DNA of 21,696 bases from a virus: positions 1 through 21,696 of IMG/VR virus record IMGVR_UViG_3300025133_000683; one strand, written 5' to 3'. A program made the translations under genes and the position numbers. Of the stretch, positions 1 to 15,198 are shown one piece after another (position 1 is the first letter of the stretch; each line of letters starts with the position of its first letter). The notes under the pieces were generated by a model. The model had not been told where the DNA came from. It made no database searches and saw only the letters and a program-made list of their open reading frames with translations.

Positions 1-2653
1 TCGGGGTGTAGTCTGCTGTTTTGCGTACCTCTACCCAATTGTCTACGGTCTGACCGTCTATAATGGTGGTATTGCTTTCGTACACCTCAAACCCGTCTGA
101 GTTGATTATGGTTACATCTGAAACACCCGAAGCTACGTAGTTATCACTTCCTGTAATTGTAACCCTTTTTGAACCTTGCCCTATGAAGTTGTCATCTCCC
201 AACACCTTAAAACTGAAAGCTGAATCCTGTATTATATTCCTTTCACCCTTTACTGTTCCTTGAAATTCAGGATAATCATTAAGGTTGATTAGTAGTTTCT
301 TGAATCGGATAGGCTTCTTTTCTATTGTGGTCGTTCCGCTTCCGACAGTTCCAGAAGTACCCAAAGTAAACGTTTCGGTAGTTAACGCTTCTACTTCAAA
401 TATTTTTATCAGCTCAACTTTCGTTAACCCCTTTTTGAATGGATTGTAGTCCATTACTTTGTTCATTCTCCAGTAAGCGTTGTCAATTAGAATTTGATCT
501 CTGAAATCGAGCTTTGCAATGTCCCACGCTGTGAGATCAAAGTAACCCGTCAACACCTTTGAGTCCTTGTTGGTTATTTCTTCTATTTGTCGCTTGTGGA
601 ATTGATTGTATAAATTGTTGTTCGTGTAGAGCAAAGTGCCTGTCCACACGTTAGCCGTATAGTATAACTCTTGAGGGATTCCAAAGTTTATATCCTGTGC
701 AGGTGCTAAAGGATGTGTAAGATGTCCCGCATAAGGATAAAAGGACACAGACCCCGTGCCGCTGAAATAAGAACTGAATACCCAATCTGGTGTTCCTGTT
801 GTGAATATTCGATTATAATACAAGAGCCTGATATTTGAACCCGTTGGAGTGACTCCTTCTGTTATATCTGAATCATATATTTTTGTTATTATCCTCGCGC
901 TATTTCCATCATTTACCAAAGGTGAAGCAGAAAAGATAATGTCTATATCTTTGGTATTGGTCACAAAGTCGTTATCGGTTTCTATCCTTCTACGTCCGTA
1001 TGTGTGTCCGTGTCGATTCTGATAACGTTCGTTGTAATAGTCCCCATCTTCCTTGTACGTGTAAAGATATTCCCTTGCAGCTAAAAGCCCCATAGGTTCA
1101 ATATCTATATTACTACCCCTATCCATTTTTTTAGTCCAATCTCTCGTCACGCCTCCACTATAGAAGTCATCCCTTGTTTCTATTATAATGTCTGATTCAC
1201 TATCGGGATTCGGTAAAAGATAAAGATTGAACATCTTAGCAACAGATAGAATTAAATCAGCCATACCCACATCTACCACCGTTTGATTCATAAAAATCAA
1301 ATCGCTTTCAAAGATTGACCCTTCTGTGTCATTCTTACCCGTTGCTGTTGTAGACGTTACCTCCCAATCGTTCCACATATTTGAGTTAGCTATCAATTGC
1401 CCCGATAGATTGGTAGTTATTAACTCATTGTTGTTTATTACATATCTAAAAATTATCTTTTCACCCGCAAATAGTAAGACGTTATTTGCTGTTGTCCCTA
1501 AATTAATAGACTCATTAAACGTGGTCGGATTGACTGTTGTCGTTAAATCAAATTGAGCAGACATATCAGCTATGACCGTTTCAACTAAAGACAAGTCAAC
1601 TTTAATTATCTGTAAATGGAATTTAATATACCCTTGATACTGTCTGTTGAGATTGAAAACCACCCTCTCCAATCCAATAGTTTGACTTACTGTAAAGGAA
1701 TAAATACCCGCATTCGGCACTAAATAAAGCCATGTCGAAGCGTTCCAGTTATTTCCCGCGTCAAAATTAGGAGATGTAAAGTCGTTATCTAACTTTACTG
1801 TTCTATATCCTGTTTCACTTGTGATTGCAGTCCATGAACCCTCTGATGTTATAGGACCATCAACTACAGTTTGTTCCGCTTGGAACTTTCGTGTATTGAG
1901 TTCTGTATCATCAGCCCACATAGCATCCTCGTTAAAAGGAATAATTAGCTTAGAAAAGAAAGCAGAATCAAAGAAAGTGGATGTGTAAGTAAACCCTGCG
2001 AAGTCGAAGATTCTGTCTATAATGGTCTTTAAGTATACTGCGGGTCTGAAATCACGGACGGAATACACTCGCTTTCCGTTCTCGTATATCATGCTGTCGC
2101 CATAGTCAACCATCGGGTATACGTATTCAGTAGATCCGTACCATGATGTTACTATGTTGTCCCGCGAGTATACATGGTCAAGGTCTGAGAAATCAATGTA
2201 TCTGACAGATTCAAACTCCTCTGTTGCTTCATTCCAAACCTGCTCAACACCATTGAGTTGCTTATCCGCTAACGCTGAAAAGATATTGATAAGCCGACCA
2301 ATAAACACCACCTCATAGATATACTTCTTACTCTTTATCTTGACCTTCCGCAACTGTACAACACCTGCCATCACTTCCACGCCATCCGAGATTACACGGG
2401 CTTCCGCTTTCTTGTTCGGGTTGAAGTTTACTTCTACATTCAGAGCTGTTGAGTCGTACGGGTTGCTGATGTTCACATCGTAAATCTGACCAAATAGAAT
2501 GTCGTTCGCTTTTGTGCTTGGACATTGAATCGTTTTACTATACTCTGTATTGCGTTTGTTAGGGTCGCGAATATCAGCAATGGAGTAGTTAAAGGAGAAG
2601 TCCAGCTCCTGCATTATATCCAACCTACGACCTTCTATAAGTACCTCAGCCAC
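1..2653 (-). CDS. Large virion/tail structural protein (5' part; C-terminus beyond window)
   Basis: An uninterrupted minus-strand frame of about 884 codons begins at GTG 2653 and runs off the left edge, so the C-terminus is missing. GTG 2653 overlaps the stop of the upstream structural gene (2646) and an in-frame TAA lies six codons before it; the first ATG is only codon 14. Visible parts are an N-terminal beta-rich region (VAEVLIEGRRLDIMQEL), a middle segment with IIDRIFDFAGFTYTSTFF, and a conserved-looking stretch MNKVMDYNPFKKGLTKVELI around residues 770-790. After that comes a G/N/D-rich stretch (VLGDDNFIGQGSKRVTI, TGSDNYVASGVSDVTI and so on) with a period near 16 residues, which resembles a beta-helix. 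Proteins of this type in flavobacterial phages are virion or tail proteins, often very large. The exact role (tail hub, fibre or host-binding) is inferred from context only. Confidence 0.8.
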   Translation of the reverse strand, partial: MAEVLIEGRRLDIMQELDFSFNYSIADIRDPNKRNTEYSKTIQCPSTKANDILFGQIYDVNISNPYDSTALNVEVNFNPNKKAEARVISDGVEVMAGVVQLRKVKIKSKKYIYEVVFIGRLINIFSALADKQLNGVEQVWNEATEEFESVRYIDFSDLDHVYSRDNIVTSWYGSTEYVYPMVDYGDSMIYENGKRVYSVRDFRPAVYLKTIIDRIFDFAGFTYTSTFFDSAFFSKLIIPFNEDAMWADDTELNTRKFQAEQTVVDGPITSEGSWTAITSETGYRTVKLDNDFTSPNFDAGNNWNASTWLYLVPNAGIYSFTVSQTIGLERVVFNLNRQYQGYIKFHLQIIKVDLSLVETVIADMSAQFDLTTTVNPTTFNESINLGTTANNVLLFAGEKIIFRYVINNNELITTNLSGQLIANSNMWNDWEVTSTTATGKNDTEGSIFESDLIFMNQTVVDVGMADLILSVAKMFNLYLLPNPDSESDIIIETRDDFYSGGVTRDWTKKMDRGSNIDIEPMGLLAAREYLYTYKEDGDYYNERYQNRHGHTYGRRRIETDNDFVTNTKDIDIIFSASPLVNDGNSARIITKIYDSDITEGVTPTGSNIRLLYYNRIFTTGTPDWVFSSYFSGTGSVSFYPYAGHLTHPLAPAQDINFGIPQELYYTANVWTGTLLYTNNNLYNQFHKRQIEEITNKDSKVLTGYFDLTAWDIAKLDFRDQILIDNAYWRMNKVMDYNPFKKGLTKVELIKIFEVEALTTETFTLGTSGTVGSGTTTIEKKPIRFKKLLINLNDYPEFQGTVKGERNIIQDSAFSFKVLGDDNFIGQGSKRVTITGSDNYVASGVSDVTIINSDGFEVYESNTTIIDGQTVDNWVEVRKTADYTP

Positions 2654-3887
2654 GCTGTCTATGATTAGTTAAAGAATATTCTAAATCAAACTCGTATTGC
2701 ATCAGCTTATCATTAAGGCTCGTTTGTTTCTTAATGCTTCGCCCGTCTATGTTGACCGCTATCATTTCGTTATTCAGTTCCTGGTAGATTACAGGCGAAG
2801 TAAACAGGTCACCCATCCACGCGCTTTCTGATTCTGTCAGGTAGTCCGTGTTGATGGTCAGCTTTTCGGTCATCTCAGTATTGAACTCTGTCCGACCTCT
2901 ACTTGCTTTTGTGTAGTCCCAAGATGTGCCCGTAAAGTTGTGCGATTGCTGAACGTAGCTATCTCTTTTCACTTTGGTTTCTTCCTTACTCTTTAGGTTG
3001 AAATTGAAGGAATCGTAGCCCCCTAACCGATTCAAGAAATGGAGTCTGATAGGTGTGTACTTACTACACTTCTGGTCAATGTTAAAAGTGATTTCTTCGG
3101 ACAACACACTCCCAACCCTTACCCATACCTTATAACTCGCAGCACCAACCAATATCGTAGCAGGGTTGCCCGATGTCCACGCTGACGGGTCGGAATTTTC
3201 TATGTCGTATGTTCCACAAGCTGTATAACAGTATTCGTTATTTATCATTGAAGCACCATCTATTGCACCCGTTGACACTTGTATGCCATCAGAATCATAG
3301 CTTGTTATTCCTATACTTTTATTCACAGCCACGCCAACAGATAAAAAATGAAGGAAAGCCGATTGATCGCTGTCAATGTATCTTGTGGACGGTGCATCAC
3401 TTAGGAACTTCTTACCTACTACTGATGTATCGTAGTCCGTATAGTCAAAGTCTAACCAATCAATAGTATTTCTAACACCGTTCCAGACGCTTTTAACGTT
3501 TACCGTGTATGTTGTACCCCCGACATAAACACCGCCTACTAAATCTTCTTCCTGAACAAATAGAGCGTATTCCTTGTGGGTATTGGGCGCGTTAAAGATA
3601 CCTGCATGGTTCACAGCAGGGATAGCAATATCAGAACCTACCTGAGTCTGTAATATCCGTGAAGGGTCATAGTAAGCTCGGTCCGTAGTTACCACTCCAT
3701 TGGAGTCTATTCCTTGTCGTGGATAAACCCGTGCCGTGCTGATAGCAGGGTCAACTGGAAAGTTAGACGGAAGCACAACAACTTTAAAGCGTTGCGTGGT
3801 GGTGTAGTTGGTAGATCGAAATACGTAAGGGTTATCATTATTGGCTAAACCATACGCTTCGGGCTGCGAGTGGACGAGTATTCCCAT
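2646..3887 (-). CDS. Putative phage tail/virion protein
   Basis: A 413-aa protein, beta-rich, with no signal peptide or membrane segment. The region around residues 280-300 contains FLNRLGGYDSFNFN, a motif I associate with structural proteins of Bacteroidetes phages, followed by a charged stretch and a C-terminal beta domain (TINTDYLTESESAWMGDLF). It sits just upstream of the giant structural gene and overlaps its GTG start by 8 nt, which suggests translational coupling. Start ATG 3887 comes five bases after a TAnnTTTA -7 box, so the message may be leaderless or nearly so. A terminator hairpin lies 34 nt further upstream, which makes this the first gene of a separate late transcript. A baseplate or distal-tail role is likely but not proven by any motif. 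Confidence 0.78.
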   Translation of the reverse strand: MGILVHSQPEAYGLANNDNPYVFRSTNYTTTQRFKVVVLPSNFPVDPAISTARVYPRQGIDSNGVVTTDRAYYDPSRILQTQVGSDIAIPAVNHAGIFNAPNTHKEYALFVQEEDLVGGVYVGGTTYTVNVKSVWNGVRNTIDWLDFDYTDYDTSVVGKKFLSDAPSTRYIDSDQSAFLHFLSVGVAVNKSIGITSYDSDGIQVSTGAIDGASMINNEYCYTACGTYDIENSDPSAWTSGNPATILVGAASYKVWVRVGSVLSEEITFNIDQKCSKYTPIRLHFLNRLGGYDSFNFNLKSKEETKVKRDSYVQQSHNFTGTSWDYTKASRGRTEFNTEMTEKLTINTDYLTESESAWMGDLFTSPVIYQELNNEMIAVNIDGRSIKKQTSLNDKLMQYEFDLEYSLTNHRQRG

Positions 3888-3920: not shown

Positions 3921-3949
3921 AACGAAGAAAGCCCCCGATCAAGGAGGCT
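3921..3949 (-). terminator. Rho-independent terminator for leftward transcription
   Basis: On the minus strand AGCCTCC-TTGATC-GGGGGCT forms a 7-bp stem (one T.G wobble) with a 6-nt loop, followed by TTTCTTCGTT. It lies between the 47-aa gene (3981-4124) and the structural gene starting at 3887, a logical place to end the upstream message. On the plus strand the wobble becomes a C.A mismatch, so the minus-strand reading is favoured. Confidence 0.6.
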
Positions 3950-3980
3950 CTCAACACAACGAACAGAAAACAAAAGTCAG

Positions 3981-4124
3981 TTAAAACTCCAATACAATAG
4001 AATCACTTATATCAAATAACGCTTCCTGTTCGTCTATTGAAGGTGCTTCTGATAGAGTTACAATAATAGCTTCTAACGCTAAATCAGAACCTTCTAATAC
4101 TTCTACATTAATTACTTCTGTCAT
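3981..4124 (-). CDS. Small acidic protein, 47 aa, unknown function
   Basis: ATG 4124 to TAA 3981 encodes a 47-residue, strongly acidic protein beginning MTEVINVEVLEGSDLALEAI, with many Glu/Asp and Val/Ile/Leu and no Cys or Trp. It is supported by its own promoter module upstream (4150-4254), by the leader AAAAACAGAGAAATC directly before ATG (almost the same as the leader AAAAACAGAGAT of the gene starting at 20045), and by a terminator downstream (3921-3949). It therefore appears to be a monocistronic unit inside the late region. I do not recognise the family. Its regulation resembles that of early genes at 20 kb, which hints at a regulatory or host-takeover role rather than a structural one. 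Confidence 0.65.
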   Translation of the reverse strand: MTEVINVEVLEGSDLALEAIIVTLSEAPSIDEQEALFDISDSIVLEF

Positions 4125-4262: not shown

Positions 4263-4754
4263 TTACTCGATACCCTCAAATAATAAATCCTCCAAGTCTG
4301 CACCTATCGCAGGTTCTAACATCTTCGGAAGGTCACGGGTTACCAGTTTACTGTTGATCACATTGGTGAAGAAGTTAGTGCCATCCCTACCATCTTCTGT
4401 AAGTCTGTTTGCTATATTAATAGCTAATGATGGGATGCTTCTTTCTGTTACCTTAAAACCGCGCTGTTCCATCTTCTGCTTAACGTTGGGATAGGTTAGC
4501 CATTCCGCTATGTCGCTACTCTGAACGGTGTATGATGGTTGTTTTCCTTTGGGTTTCACACCTTCGTCAAGCTCCAGGTAATAGTCAAGCATGGTAACGC
4601 CTATTCCGTCTATATCGCCTGACTTGGTAGGTTTGAATTTGATAGACGAATCTAAATCTGATGAAGCGTCTGAGTTATTGTCTTTAAGCCCTTCTGATAG
4701 TCGTGAGGTTATTAATCCTCCAAAGGTTCTAAGTGCTGATGCTGTGTTCTTCAT
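4263..4754 (-). CDS. Putative phage head-tail/tail completion-type protein
   Basis: A 163-aa protein that starts at ATG 4754 and overlaps the previous gene by 26 nt. No strong motif is visible. The N-terminal half (AlaSerAlaLeu-rich helix, then DYYLELDEGVKPKGKQPSYT at about residues 57-76) followed by a helical region that ends in a hydrophobic, acidic tail is reminiscent of small HK97-gp10-like tail completion proteins, where a similar x-G-x-P-x-G-K-x-P stretch occurs in a loop. The assignment rests on that resemblance and on the position between the tail chaperone and the large tail proteins, so it is tentative. Another virion-associated role is possible. Confidence 0.5.
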   Translation of the reverse strand: MKNTASALRTFGGLITSRLSEGLKDNNSDASSDLDSSIKFKPTKSGDIDGIGVTMLDYYLELDEGVKPKGKQPSYTVQSSDIAEWLTYPNVKQKMEQRGFKVTERSIPSLAINIANRLTEDGRDGTNFFTNVINSKLVTRDLPKMLEPAIGADLEDLLFEGIE

Positions 4755-5064: not shown

Positions 5065-5264
5065 AGTGCTTCCTTATAAAATTCCTTTCGTCTATCGTTG
5101 TCAAATATACGTATTACTCCATTCTCTAAACTTCGCTTTGTATAGATTTGCGTGGTCTTCTTCAATAGCTGTTCCATATCCTGACCTTCCATTGGCTCAA
5201 TCCATACATTGTAGTTATTGGTTGTCAGTTTAGCTATCATCTCTTTTTCATCTGGTACGTTCAT
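5061..5264 (-). CDS. Small protein, 67 aa, unknown function
   Basis: Starts at ATG 5264 inside the last codons of the tail-chaperone -1 frame (17-nt overlap) and ends at 5061 with an ATGA-type overlap onto the next gene. The product is soluble and charged (MNVPDEKEMIAKLTTNNYN to RRKEFYKEAL), with an alpha-beta-like pattern and no Cys. The tight coupling on both sides makes it a real gene of the late operon. No family recognised. Confidence 0.6.
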   Translation of the reverse strand: MNVPDEKEMIAKLTTNNYNVWIEPMEGQDMEQLLKKTTQIYTKRSLENGVIRIFDNDRRKEFYKEAL

Positions 5265-6014
5265 ACGCGCCTTTCGCTTTGTGGAATGCTAACCTATTTA
5301 AGAACTCTATTAGATTCATGTCGAAGTAATAGTCCCAAAGTTCAGGTCTTCCATTCGTGAGGTTGTCGACTGTGTTGAGCCATCCGTATTTGCTGATGAA
5401 CGTGCTAACTCCTTTTCCGCTTTGCGTTTGAGCCTCTGTGCCACTATCTCCAAAAAGCGAAGTGTACTGGTTACGGATGTCTCCCAATCCGATAAAAAAA
5501 AATCGGTTAACGGTTTCACTATTGTCATGGGTAGCTCTTTCATATCTTCGGCTGTCTGCTCATGCTTGTCGGCTTCGTGCGTTTTCTTGAACCATTTTCT
5601 ACGGTACGCAAAACAGGCTAAAAGGTTGTGAAGATTCTCATCTATCTTTTCGGGGTCTTGTAGGAAGTGCTGTAATGAAATCCATTGTCCACCGCTTATC
5701 TTCTTAGCTTTCTTCTCGAAATAGTACCGCGTTCCGTTTACCTTGCATTTGGTCTTTACTTTGCCTGTAATCGGATGAGATAGAAAACCCATCATATTGA
5801 TAAGATGTTCTATTCTATACCGTTCCTCGATAAGCAGAAGGTTCATTTCAACGCCTGAGAATAACGACACAATAGCACATTTAATTTCAAAGTCTGTCAC
5901 TTCTTTGTTGGTGCTTTCTTCGCGCTTGGTTTCGGATTCTTTTAACAGATCGTGGTATGCTTGGTATTCTCTGAGGGTTACCCCGTTCCAGTCTGTGGGT
6001 ATGGTTATTTTCAT
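5248..6014 (-). CDS. Tail assembly chaperone, predicted -1 frameshift product (GT-like), about 255 aa
   Basis: The frame ending at 5248 has no good start codon of its own (only TTG at 5487), yet encodes a sensible domain: FISKYGWLNTVDNLT followed by an acidic helix and LIEFLNRLAFHKAK, the kind of YGW...L..L...K helix seen in tail chaperones of flavobacterial phages. This frame is -1 relative to the 5316-6014 gene and stays open back through the T9 run at 5494-5502. A slip there joins residues 1-173 of frame 0 to about 82 residues of the -1 frame. The span is 767 nt plus one reread base, which is exactly 256 codons including the stop. This is the G/GT arrangement of tail chaperones. Frameshift efficiency cannot be judged from sequence. 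Confidence 0.66.
5316..6014 (-). CDS. Tail assembly chaperone, frame-0 product (G-like)
   Basis: A 232-aa protein starting MKITIPTDWNGVTLREYQAY, a T/IPxxWxxxTLxxYQ opening that I associate with tail-assembly chaperones of Bacteroidetes phages. The core to about residue 170 is helical with Lys/Glu-rich segments. Codons 171-174 (GAT TTT TTT TTA, 5504-5493) form a slippery run. Frame 0 continues to 5316 with a basic helix and a Ser/Thr-rich tail of low complexity. In lambda-type phages this chaperone coats the tape measure protein during tail assembly and is made in two forms by ribosomal frameshifting; the layout here fits. ATG 6014 overlaps the stop of the glycosyltransferase-like gene (ATGA). 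Confidence 0.72.
   Translation of the reverse strand: MKITIPTDWNGVTLREYQAYHDLLKESETKREESTNKEVTDFEIKCAIVSLFSGVEMNLLLIEERYRIEHLINMMGFLSHPITGKVKTKCKVNGTRYYFEKKAKKISGGQWISLQHFLQDPEKIDENLHNLLACFAYRRKWFKKTHEADKHEQTAEDMKELPMTIVKPLTDFFLSDWETSVTSTLRFLEIVAQRLKRKAEKELARSSANTDGSTQSTTSRMEDLNFGTITST
5490..5507 (-). other. Programmed -1 ribosomal frameshift site with flanking hairpin arms
   Basis: Minus-strand sequence is CCGAT-TTTTTTT-TATCGG. Read in frame 0 (GAT TTT TTT TTA) it contains the canonical heptamers T_TTT_TTT and T_TTT_TTA. The arms CCGAT and ATCGG are exact inverted repeats around the T run. Both frames are open across the site. Confidence 0.68.
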
Positions 6015-6979
6015 TCTAATCGTTCTTTTCGTTTTTCGTTGATGTCGTGGATGTTGTAGTTAGCAATGGCATATAACCTAAGGGCTTGACCTTCTTCCAT
6101 AATGGTATCTTTAGAAAGTCCTTCCGCTTTACTAATCGCATCTTTCCAGTTCTCCACTTTAAATATTCCTTTACAGTCATCAGTATAGGGATGTATGTTC
6201 TGTACAAAGATAGGCAATCCTTTCATACCTGCCTCGATTATCTTTAGATTGCTCTTGTACGTGTTGAACTTATTATCTACCAACGGGGCTATTGCTATGT
6301 CGAATTGCTCGTATAAATGTCCGTAGTTCCAAACGTCCAAAGCCTCAACGTAAACGGCTGTAAAGTTATCAGCTAACCTTTTCCATTCGGGTTCTTTTTG
6401 GTTGTAACCTGCTATAACAGGTGGACGTGTATAGCACCCATCTGTCAGCATCAGATCAGCGAAGTGAGTTACACCGCCCGCCCATCCTATCCTATTCTGG
6501 TAGTCTGTCTTGGGTTGCCATTGTGCTTCATTCGGGTCTATTGCGTTGGGTATTACGTGCCAATTCTGATTAAGTCTATCAACCGCTTTTCCTAAGTGTT
6601 CATGCGTTACCCATATCTCGTCCGAGTTGATAAGTGCCTCTATACTTTGCCGTTTAAAGAACTCTGAAATACCCTTCGCCACGTGCGCGGTATTCAATAG
6701 CCAATGGTCATCTATGTCGCAGATGACATACGTACCGCGATTCTTTAATTCCTTGATGAACTTTTCTGTCTTGAAGTATGTGCCGTCTTTTTTATTTGCT
6801 TCACCGAATAACGGAACGCGCCTGGAAAAGACTACCGCGTCAAAGTTGTGATCAAATACCTTAGCCGTTGCGCCCTCACATCTGAACACGTCCATATCAT
6901 TACCCAACAAAGAGAATGGCTTATGTAGTCTATGGTAATCAACGCCTGAATAACCTTCGTGAATGTAGCCTACTTTCAT
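6011..6979 (-). CDS. Glycosyltransferase, GT-B fold (family 1/4-like)
   Basis: A 322-aa protein with the outline of a GT-B glycosyltransferase: N-terminal Rossmann-like half (MKVGYIHEGYSGVDYHRL; CDIDDHW at 87-93), a hinge near HVIPNAIDPNEAQW (141-154), and a C-terminal nucleotide-sugar half with IGWAGGVTHFAD (164-175), FDIAIAPL (226-233) and YKSNLKIIEAGMKGLP (241-256), which matches the acidic E region that binds the sugar nucleotide. Family members move a sugar from a nucleotide donor to protein, lipid or DNA. It lies between the orphan DNA methyltransferase and the tail chaperone with 4-nt overlaps on both sides. Its acceptor could be a virion protein or modified DNA; sequence alone does not decide. 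Confidence 0.75.
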   Translation of the reverse strand: MKVGYIHEGYSGVDYHRLHKPFSLLGNDMDVFRCEGATAKVFDHNFDAVVFSRRVPLFGEANKKDGTYFKTEKFIKELKNRGTYVICDIDDHWLLNTAHVAKGISEFFKRQSIEALINSDEIWVTHEHLGKAVDRLNQNWHVIPNAIDPNEAQWQPKTDYQNRIGWAGGVTHFADLMLTDGCYTRPPVIAGYNQKEPEWKRLADNFTAVYVEALDVWNYGHLYEQFDIAIAPLVDNKFNTYKSNLKIIEAGMKGLPIFVQNIHPYTDDCKGIFKVENWKDAISKAEGLSKDTIMEEGQALRLYAIANYNIHDINEKRKERLE

Positions 6980-7740
6980 GATGTAAATAAATCCTTTTTA
7001 TTTATTCGAGCCTCTGTTATCTCGCAATATTCAGAACTCATTTCGCTACCTATCCAATTACGATTATTAATAATTGCCATCTTTGCTGTTGTTCCAGAAC
7101 CCATAAAGCAATCGTAAACTAAATCACCTTCATTACTCCAACTAATTATGTGGTCATTTGCTAATTGCTCTGGAAATATTGCAGGGTGTCCTGTTTTGTT
7201 TTTACCTACGTGAATTTTCCAAATATTAGAACGTCTGCCATATTCATTTCTAATAAAAAAACCATCACCTTTTTTATTCTCTCCTTTATTTATAACACTA
7301 TCTTTTCTTTGTTTTCTGCCACCATTAACACATTTATGGTCTGTGATAAAATTCATTGCTTTTGGTTTTCCTTTACTAAAAACAAACACATACTCAATCA
7401 CATTATAATATCTGTCTTGTGTTGGAACTCTACCTGTTTTCTCCCAAATCATTGTGTCGTGTAAATTAAAACCAATTTCTTTAAAAAATAATGCTTGTCT
7501 AAAACTTGTACCAGTCTCACTTCCTTTTATTGTAGCATCTCCAACTATCCAAACAACTACACCACCATCTTTAGTAACTCTATACAACTCTTTCGCTATA
7601 CTTTCAAAGTCAAAACTATAACCTTTATAATCTCTTAAATTGTCATAAGGTGGTGAAGTAACAGTTAAATCAATAAAGTTATCTTCCATTCGTGCCATTG
7701 TGTCAAGGCAGTTTTCATTGTATATTTTATCTGTAGTCAT
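6976..7740 (-). CDS. Orphan N4-cytosine/N6-adenine DNA methyltransferase (beta-type motif order)
   Basis: A 254-aa S-adenosylmethionine-dependent DNA methyltransferase. Catalytic motif IV is TSPPY at 28-32, followed by HPAIFP at 185-190, and the SAM-binding motif I DCFMGSGTT lies at 210-218 near the C-terminus. The order IV then I marks the beta class. The TSPPY form occurs in both N4-cytosine and N6-adenine enzymes, so the base is uncertain. No restriction endonuclease is adjacent, so it is likely an orphan enzyme protecting phage DNA from host restriction. Base use is clearly more A+T-rich than in the adjoining terminase gene (hand count 17-18 G+C per 60 against 26), a sign of separate acquisition. 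ATGA overlaps join it to both neighbours. Confidence 0.85.
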   Translation of the reverse strand: MTTDKIYNENCLDTMARMEDNFIDLTVTSPPYDNLRDYKGYSFDFESIAKELYRVTKDGGVVVWIVGDATIKGSETGTSFRQALFFKEIGFNLHDTMIWEKTGRVPTQDRYYNVIEYVFVFSKGKPKAMNFITDHKCVNGGRKQRKDSVINKGENKKGDGFFIRNEYGRRSNIWKIHVGKNKTGHPAIFPEQLANDHIISWSNEGDLVYDCFMGSGTTAKMAIINNRNWIGSEMSSEYCEITEARINKKDLFTS

Positions 7741-8894
7741 CTAATCGCGTATTTACCTGAACTACTTTTAAGTTTCTCCATTGCTACATATCTCAAAGCG
7801 TCTAAAGCATGGTTGAAATTATCGACTGGCTGACCTGTCTGCTCGCCTGTCTTGTCCGTTTTCCATACATAACCCCGAAGCTCTTTAATGATGTTGATAC
7901 TTGACGAAGTTACGAATAAAGGAATAGACCTGACCTTGTCAATTCCCGACCTAATACTATCAGCACCTTTCGGGCATCCCCTTATCCTGAATCCATGACC
8001 GCGTACTTCTGCTATGCTCTTTGGTTCTGAGCTATCCGCTATCCATTCGCCCTGTCTGAACCCTTGCAACCTTTCAGCTATTTGGGGGTTTGTTAGCCCT
8101 TTCTCATAAAGTAGCTCGTTAACGTATAAAGCACCATCGAAGTAACACACCTCCACGCCTGCGCTTGGGTCGTTAGAGTAGCCCCAATCGAGTCCAAAGG
8201 CTTTCCACTTCCATGAGTCAGGCATCTTGTCGCATTGCTTCCAGTTGTCATAGACCGCGCCCTGTAATGTTCCAAGTTCACCACATCCGTACACCTTCCA
8301 CCAATTCGCCCAATAGGTAGAGGTCTTTGCTTTCTCCTTTGCTTCCTCTATTGCTTGGACTATTGCAGGTTCTAAGGCTTCGTTATCCTTGTAGGTCAAT
8401 ATCACATGGTCCGCACCGTGTGCAACCAATTCAGTATGTGCCCAGAACTCCTGAGTAGGGTTAAAGTCCACGTAGATGAACTTCCTTGTCCTGATAGCCA
8501 TCTGATGATAAGCAGACCATGAGATGTTATTAGCCTCGTTCACAAATAGAATGTCACGCCTTGCGCCTCTGAGCTTGTCGCTTTGGTCTGCGCTAAAGAA
8601 CTCAATGATAGACCCGTTTAGAAACGTGTAAGTTAACGTGCTTCTATTCCATTGGGTGTAGATGTCGTTACCTATCTCGTCTTGGATTTTTAGGAAGTCA
8701 CGGATAGCACCCCTTCGGAGGTGTGGTATTGATTCAGATACGATGCTGATCTCTGATAGTGGGTTATTAGCCGCGTACATTATCAGAATAGGAATGATTG
8801 AAAAGGTCTTACTTGAAGATGTACCGCCTTGTACTACTCGTTCCCTCGTTCTTAACGCGCCTATCTTAGCTTGTGCCGTTGTCGCTTGGAACAT
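7737..8894 (-). CDS. terL: Terminase large subunit
   Basis: A 385-aa DNA-packaging motor ATPase/nuclease. The N-terminal ATPase has a Walker A GGTSSSKT (23-30), Walker B ILFVNE (115-120) with E120 as the likely catalytic carboxylate, and a YVDFNP motif III-like strand (141-146). The C-terminal RNase H-like nuclease shows FGLDWGYSNDPSA (D236), IADSSEPKSI (D287) and NHALDALRYV (D365). It cuts concatemeric phage DNA and drives it into proheads through the portal. It belongs to the PBSX/Terminase_3-like group. It follows terS with a 29-nt overlap and is coupled to the methyltransferase by ATGA. The length is a little short for TerL but all key motifs are present. Confidence 0.92.
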   Translation of the reverse strand: MFQATTAQAKIGALRTRERVVQGGTSSSKTFSIIPILIMYAANNPLSEISIVSESIPHLRRGAIRDFLKIQDEIGNDIYTQWNRSTLTYTFLNGSIIEFFSADQSDKLRGARRDILFVNEANNISWSAYHQMAIRTRKFIYVDFNPTQEFWAHTELVAHGADHVILTYKDNEALEPAIVQAIEEAKEKAKTSTYWANWWKVYGCGELGTLQGAVYDNWKQCDKMPDSWKWKAFGLDWGYSNDPSAGVEVCYFDGALYVNELLYEKGLTNPQIAERLQGFRQGEWIADSSEPKSIAEVRGHGFRIRGCPKGADSIRSGIDKVRSIPLFVTSSSINIIKELRGYVWKTDKTGEQTGQPVDNFNHALDALRYVAMEKLKSSSGKYAIR

Positions 8895-13807: not shown

Positions 13808-15198
13808 AACCTACCGATATTAGGATAAAGTTCTTTTATCTTCTTCATGTCTCCTTTGTAGAACATATAAATCTTTTGGTCGGCTTTAGGGTACTTTCTG
13901 TGGTGTAGTGTCTTCTTTGCTTGTGAAAACCTTGTGAACTCACTTTCTAAATAAATAACCTTATTGTAAATATGAAGACCTTGCTCTTTGAAAAATAATT
14001 CATGTTCAGCCTCACAACCGTAGTAAGCCCCGTTTTTATCCCTGCTATCTCCAGTCATAACAACAAAGAAAGTATTATCATTCATCGCTTCTATTGCGTT
14101 TTTATAACCCTGGAACAATGTATCTCTAAATTGTTCGTATGTTCCTAAGTGATTTATCTCGCCTTCAGGTGGTAGCCCATCATAATCAATATACTTTTCA
14201 ACCCTGTAATATGGTGGACATGAAAACGTTAAGTCGCTTTTTCTTTTCGGTGTGTATTTTGAAGTATCTGACAAATGCCAATTAACATCATTAAAGTCTT
14301 TGCAAATAGCATTATTCGTGTCACATTGATTCTGTCTTATCTCTGATGATTCATAAGTAAAACCACAACCACCAGAAACAAAACCCATTTGAACACCACC
14401 GCCAAAAGGATTGTAAACATGACTGCCATCTTTAGGCATAAAGAACCGCGCTATTATTTCACAAGCGGTAGGGTCTAATACAGATGCGTTCCCGTTTAAT
14501 GTTTTCTTATCATCATGTACTATTTTACCTTTTACTATTTTATTTTTCGATAACACAACGTTAGAAAAACCTTTAGACCCTTGCCAACACCCTTCCCTGG
14601 ACGCAAACCTCGGATTAATTACGTTATGTTTTTCGCCTGCTTCATCCAATTTAGCGTTCCATGCTCTTTTATTTTGAAGCCATAACCCCGAAGTAGAACG
14701 CCATAGATTCGTCATTGCTGTATGTGCTAACAACTTCATTCTAACTTGTTCAGGTTCTCCATAATAGATGTACTTGAAATCGTTCTTATCTAAATTAACC
14801 TTAAACCCTATTTCTTCAAATACTGATGGTTTTTCTAAATCATGTTTTTTAGAAACTGTCATTATCATAGGGTAGCCGAATGTGTTGCCCTCAATGATTT
14901 TATTTACCATGCTTTGGTAAATTTCTACATCCTTAAATTTAGGATACATTGCAGATTGTAGTAAGCAGTATTCTTTAGCATCGTGGTTTATCTCAAAAGT
15001 GAAGAACCCTGCAAACTCATCGTCAACCTTTAGTATTATAGCTGAATGTATCTGCATATTCTTACGGGCTGCTCGATAAGCTATCTTGTCTTCAATGGCT
15101 AATTTTGCTACGTCTTCTTCGTAACCTGACCCGATAACGCTGTCAACTTTTATCAAGTCGACTTTTTCTGTAAATAGTTTTGGTTGCATTGTTTTCAT
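13804..15198 (-). CDS. GNAT-like acetyltransferase fused to a phage DNA methyltransferase-like domain
   Basis: A 464-aa two-domain protein from ATG 15198 (a GTG at 15234 would put the start inside a hairpin and is rejected). Residues about 48-140 look like a GNAT fold: IHSAIILKVDDEFAGFFTFE, CLLQSAMYPKF, and FEEIGFKVN at the end. The C-terminal half matches the phage methyltransferase family often linked to ParB-like domains: SVLDPTACEIIARFF, motif I VYNPFGGGVQMGFV (Asp replaced by Asn at 263), SSEIRQNQ, catalytic motif IV SCPPYYRVEKY (326-336), VVMTGDSRDKNGAYYG and KIYMFYKGD. It would act on DNA bases, with the GNAT part adding an acyl or related group. It has its own promoter and folded leader and is A+T-rich. 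The enzymatic role is inferred. Confidence 0.68.
   Translation of the reverse strand: MKTMQPKLFTEKVDLIKVDSVIGSGYEEDVAKLAIEDKIAYRAARKNMQIHSAIILKVDDEFAGFFTFEINHDAKEYCLLQSAMYPKFKDVEIYQSMVNKIIEGNTFGYPMIMTVSKKHDLEKPSVFEEIGFKVNLDKNDFKYIYYGEPEQVRMKLLAHTAMTNLWRSTSGLWLQNKRAWNAKLDEAGEKHNVINPRFASREGCWQGSKGFSNVVLSKNKIVKGKIVHDDKKTLNGNASVLDPTACEIIARFFMPKDGSHVYNPFGGGVQMGFVSGGCGFTYESSEIRQNQCDTNNAICKDFNDVNWHLSDTSKYTPKRKSDLTFSCPPYYRVEKYIDYDGLPPEGEINHLGTYEQFRDTLFQGYKNAIEAMNDNTFFVVMTGDSRDKNGAYYGCEAEHELFFKEQGLHIYNKVIYLESEFTRFSQAKKTLHHRKYPKADQKIYMFYKGDMKKIKELYPNIGRL

Follow-up and report, generated by a model that had tools for sequence, protein, structure and literature searches.

A run of exactly nine Ts between two overlapping frames of a putative phage tail assembly chaperone gene probably marks a site of transcriptional slippage

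Frameshifting in tail chaperone genes is among the most widely conserved recoding events of phages. The window analysed here, which is one 21.7-kb virus record (IMGVR_UViG_3300025133_000683, 21,696 nt), holds a gene of this appearance and raises the question of how one start could give two proteins, and of which machine, the ribosome or the RNA polymerase, would slip. A preliminary description of this DNA had placed a programmed shift at a T9 run, and we recovered the coordinates it gave: the 232-aa frame 0, the run itself at 5502-5494, the -1 frame, which is open from T9 to the stop at 5248, and a fused product of 255 aa. This T9 is the only run of at least nine Ts or As within the window, and the heptamers T_TTT_TTT and T_TTT_TTA are both in phase there. 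The -1 frame had been described as a protein-like domain lacking a normal start. We observed that no ATG precedes the conserved domain in the window, where TTG at 5487 is the sole candidate start, and that the domain is conserved in all relatives. Comparison of the window proteins with Pfam and PHROGs gave no match for either frame. The features of the locus are collected in Table 1. In the window, glycosyltransferase and DNA methylase genes (6011-7740) separate the terminase and chaperone genes, which adjoin in most relatives examined.

Table 1. Features of the window around the two-frame gene
Feature	Position	Strand	Remark
Frame-0 gene, 232 aa, G-like short form of a putative tail assembly chaperone	5316..6014	-	ORF
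T9 slip run, codons GAT TTT TTT TTA	5494..5502	-	exact T9 in 219/219 distinct related sites
-1 frame C-terminal domain, FFFIGLGDIRNQY...YGW...EFLN..., T-like part of the putative long form	5248..5502	-	conserved in all relatives
Inverted repeat CCGAT-T8-ATCGG over the T run	5489..5506	-	arms shared by the window and L002 alone; judged incidental
Next gene, 67 aa	5061..5264	-	shares its first 17 nt, ATG included, with the end of the -1 frame
Tail completion / neck-like protein, P12024S gp42 homologue	4263..4754	-	hhalign, its family vs gp42, 99.1%
413-aa virion/tail protein, P12024S gp44 homologue (phrog_35281)	2646..3887	-	
Terminase large subunit	7737..8894	-	in most relatives the chaperone gene lies directly after the TerL gene

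An 81-aa query covering the -1 domain retrieved relatives from IMG/VR at 77% to about 40% identity, all of them with T9 at the equivalent place. The frame-0 query alone retrieved none there, because the frame-0 subfamily of the window is rare. Wider searches were performed with profiles of the -1 domain and, separately, with the frame-0 domain, and hundreds of contigs were obtained. Each of these searches covered the best 80 loci (of 196-505 confirmed relatives where profiles were used), and the family is larger than the sites read. All fetched DNA was scanned for runs of at least six Ts followed by the correct two-frame arrangement. We found exactly T9 in all 219 distinct sites among the best loci of each search, in relatives down to ~25-40% identity, and neither T8 nor T10 at any of them. 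In the search with the frame-0 domain alone, T9 was present in 79/79 complete sites. The cultured phages P12024S and P12024L have exactly T9 as well. The run and the -1 overlap were kept in every relative whose contig reaches the site, whichever domain had been used as the query. In the fetched loci, which are partly redundant, the spectrum of T runs was T5 2587, T6 804, T7 170, T8 44 and T9 401, with none longer.

All relatives read therefore support the claim, made from the window alone, of a programmed shift at T9 into the -1 frame of a gene resembling tail assembly chaperones. The comparison with related phages had been named as a check that could overturn it, and no relative read lacked the T run or carried the two frames fused. 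No single-ORF fusion of the frames was found in IMG/VR. Three UniProt proteins of ~260 aa each (A0A516L5A8, A0A516L611 and A0A6J5N0W0) matched the models of both domains in the structure searches, and in them the two parts may be naturally fused in one frame. Within the genome collection, only two bacterial MAG contigs had the arrangement; they belong to Flavobacteriales and Chitinophagaceae, which suggests that the hosts are Bacteroidota.

No relative was found when 50,697 records of cultured phages were searched at BLAST level, and P12024S emerged only via structure comparison. The AlphaFold model of the frame-0 protein matched gp38 of this Nonlabens phage (structure search, E 2.8e-8). In P12024S, gp38 immediately follows the terminase gene; its T9 is at 23578, and the -1 domain comes next, in frame. 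P12024L likewise carries exactly T9. Profile comparison by hhalign supported both parts (frame-0 to gp38, 97%; -1 frame to P12024S, 92%). Further, the head and tail module of the window is syntenic with that of P12024S (gp42, gp44, gp45, gp49, gp1, gp2 and gp3; hhalign 97.6-99.9%). P12024S gp42 matches PHROG 5 (tail completion or Neck1), and gp49-like proteins match PHROG tape measure families (E to 2.8e-15). The isolates that PMC8776804 classes as siphoviral in morphology include the Nonlabens phages. Thus the gp38/gp39 pair of P12024S and P12024L (genus Inhavirus) resembles our gene in structure, profile, synteny, exact T9 and -1 domain, but it is annotated as two unrelated hypothetical genes and is too distant from the window for BLAST. 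Flavobacterium phage 6H was rejected as a relative; its match was weak and came without the T9 arrangement.

Which machine slips can be approached through the codons of the run. Indels in it alter the frame, so the absence of T8 and T10 by indel is expected under any mechanism; since this absence is uninformative, only the argument from substitutions separates the mechanisms. The T9 occurs in two codon registers, 190 sites being of the [CG]TT TTT TTT TGN type and 29 of the NNT TTT TTT TTN type (n=219), with one register switch on the tree, so that the two registers count as one natural experiment. On a tree of 96 proteins, there were zero changes at all nine Ts vs minima of 8, 10, 13 and 16 changes at control codons. 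The controls, from the same genes and tree, were third positions at which conserved codons can change silently; the control F codon was TTT in 43 cases and TTC in 52. In the first register (CTT TTT TTT TGC), a change of the 8th T to C is silent in both frames (TTT to TTC; TTG to CTG) and leaves a heptamer, U_UUU_UUC, intact. In the second register (GGT or GAT TTT TTT TTG), the 1st T can change silently while the U_UUU_UUR heptamer (U_UUU_UUG) stays intact. Neither change was ever seen among the sites compared. The U_UU.Y motifs (U_UU.U and U_UU.C) rank in one class among E. coli heptamers (PMC4066793), so TTC should suit the ribosome.

A homopolymeric A/T run of nine is thus kept as a unit in either codon register, in 219/219 sites, which includes Ts that a heptamer does not need. 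Bacterial RNA polymerase slips at high efficiency on nine As or Ts, its RNA-DNA hybrid is 9-10 bp long, and the slippage site of Thermus dnaX is 9 T (PMC5009743). The E. coli enzyme favours poly(T), with 5-10% slippage at T7/T8 (PMC6260861). We infer from these sequence comparisons that the T9 switch is probably a programmed transcriptional slippage, with the polymerase as the slipping machine. The polymerase would realign the weak 9-bp rU:dA hybrid on T9, and some of the mRNAs would thereby gain an extra U (T9 to T10); on these, ordinary translation would run on into the -1 frame. One start would then give a frame-0 form of about 200-230 aa and a presumably rarer long form of about 240-260 aa carrying the -1 frame C-terminal domain, and the exact length of the run would set the ratio of the two. 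Transcripts with a deletion would enter the third frame, where translation would end at a median distance of 9 codons.

The strongest competitor is programmed -1 ribosomal frameshifting on U_UUU_UUU or U_UUU_UUR, as in lambda G/GT, by which a uniform mRNA would give the same two proteins. U_UUU_UUU is in itself a valid heptamer for a -1 shift, all members of the family have it in phase, the direction of the shift fits, and the tail-chaperone shifts described so far are ribosomal (PMC5009743). Against this stand the Ts outside the heptamer, which never vary though silent change is possible, and the lack of enriched folding downstream. The preliminary description had proposed a hairpin over the slippery site itself. 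The arms CCGAT (5506-5502) and ATCGG (5493-5489) do flank the T run of the window, but they are kept only in the window and one close relative (L002), and the hairpin found no support. The 33-nt span over the site folds at -6.5 kcal/mol with an unremarkable z of -1.1. Among 48 representatives, folding was enriched neither on the two sides of the site nor over it (mean z -0.2 to 0.1; downstream 0.06 to 0.13), and we therefore rejected an RNA structure as the stimulator. SD stimulators would not be expected to work in Bacteroidota, which we also counted against the ribosome. A purely or mainly translational switch, as had been assumed for this gene, is possible but rather unlikely, because the run is preserved whole in both registers. 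Ribosomal slipping may nevertheless add to the effect of transcriptional slippage.

We modelled the frame-0 and -1 parts apart, the frame-0 protein from an alignment of 46 sequences, and obtained AlphaFold pLDDT values of 90 for the frame-0 protein and 78 for the -1 domain. When the frame-0 model was compared with 350,542 PDB chains, the top match was 2ob9, the tail assembly chaperone of HK97, and the match was weak (E 0.48, prob 0.41, TMt 0.40). Comparison of the frame-0 profile with HK97 gp13 by hhalign gave no match. The order of the tail module is TerL, chaperone-like gene, tail completion, gp44-like, gp45-like and tape measure, so that the chaperone-like gene lies upstream of the tail completion, gp44-like and tape-measure genes and not between the last two. 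Elsewhere in the window, a long gap between genes (3926-4124) is broken by a 47-aa ORF on the minus strand (3981-4124), and a terminator-like hairpin (3946-3932) follows this ORF.

Architecture, genomic place and the hint from the fold, rather than proven homology, suggest that the gene most likely encodes two forms of a tail assembly chaperone, one short and one long, of the G/GT type, in what would be a siphophage lineage of Bacteroidota. The shift could be real and the protein nevertheless another virion or assembly factor, as the gene matches no Pfam or PHROGs family with a function and does not adjoin the tape measure gene. We consider this unlikely in view of its position in the tail module, its two-form architecture and 2ob9 as the top fold match.

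Judged by sequence, both overlapping frames are real genes, and they are conserved in all members. The -1 coding is conserved from the T run onward (FF[LF]...Y..LF...WGW...EFLN). In 87/96 relatives the next ATG lies within the end of the -1 frame, at a median of 121 nt past the frame-0 stop; the operon is thus arranged around the end of the -1 frame. Frame 0 stays open about 36-76 codons beyond T9 in the relatives, and its tail is predicted in the AlphaFold model to continue one long helix, which agrees with the earlier proposal that the two forms differ in their C-terminal tails. The locus might also be read as two separate genes in an ordinary overlap, the C-terminal domain being started internally. 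P12024S is annotated in this way, its gp39 (L147 23663-23830) being a separate hypothetical gene that covers the -1 domain in its 3' part alone, and the window offers the TTG mentioned above. We regard this as very improbable, as conserved -1 coding starts within T9 (FF[LF]..L......Y..LF) with no conserved start codon before it, and the invariance of T9 would be left unexplained. A sequencing or assembly error, or phase variation of the homopolymer at the DNA level, to both of which homopolymers are prone, is hardly credible, since none of the distinct sites has T8 or T10 in place of T9 and the genomes of cultured phages agree with them.

The gene shares with lambda G/GT and HK97 gp13/gp14, which use a -1 ribosomal frameshift, one start, a putative short form and long form with a -1 domain, and a place in a siphophage tail module; the HK97 chaperone 2ob9 is also its top, though weak, fold match. 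It differs from HK97 gp13 in showing no sequence similarity, and from both systems in that frame 0 extends well past the site, the shift site is an invariant T9, and the gene lies after the terminase, with several others between it and the tape measure gene downstream. Thermus thermophilus dnaX and Shigella mxiE/spa13 resemble it in having an A/T homopolymer (nine in dnaX), no translational stimulator and two products per gene (PMC5009743). Unlike these genes of replication and secretion, the present one is a phage tail gene, its slippage is proposed from sequence, and its run length is fixed at nine across a very deep family. In the literature searched, which covered few subscription papers, we found no report of transcriptional slippage in a phage tail chaperone.

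Selection has frozen T9 through a family whose proteins drifted past recognition by BLAST. It is probable that in this Bacteroidota siphophage lineage slippage of RNA polymerase on a T run fixed at nine sets the ratio of the chaperone forms, so that the length of a homopolymer, not a ribosomal signal, would be decisive. If this is true, the host RNA polymerase sets an assembly ratio of the phage, and the long form is missed by gene finders, as the annotation of P12024S gp39 would illustrate. With P12024S, a cultured member of the family opens the mechanism to direct testing.

We also noted a region of Croceibacter phage P2559S (L393, 14349-15114) in which gp20 and gp21 lie just before the tape measure gene. 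An A8 run is located there at 14747, the frame of gp21 is open from A8 in the +1 frame, and its annotated start is late. This may be a second flavophage tail chaperone with a homopolymer shift, here in the opposite direction.
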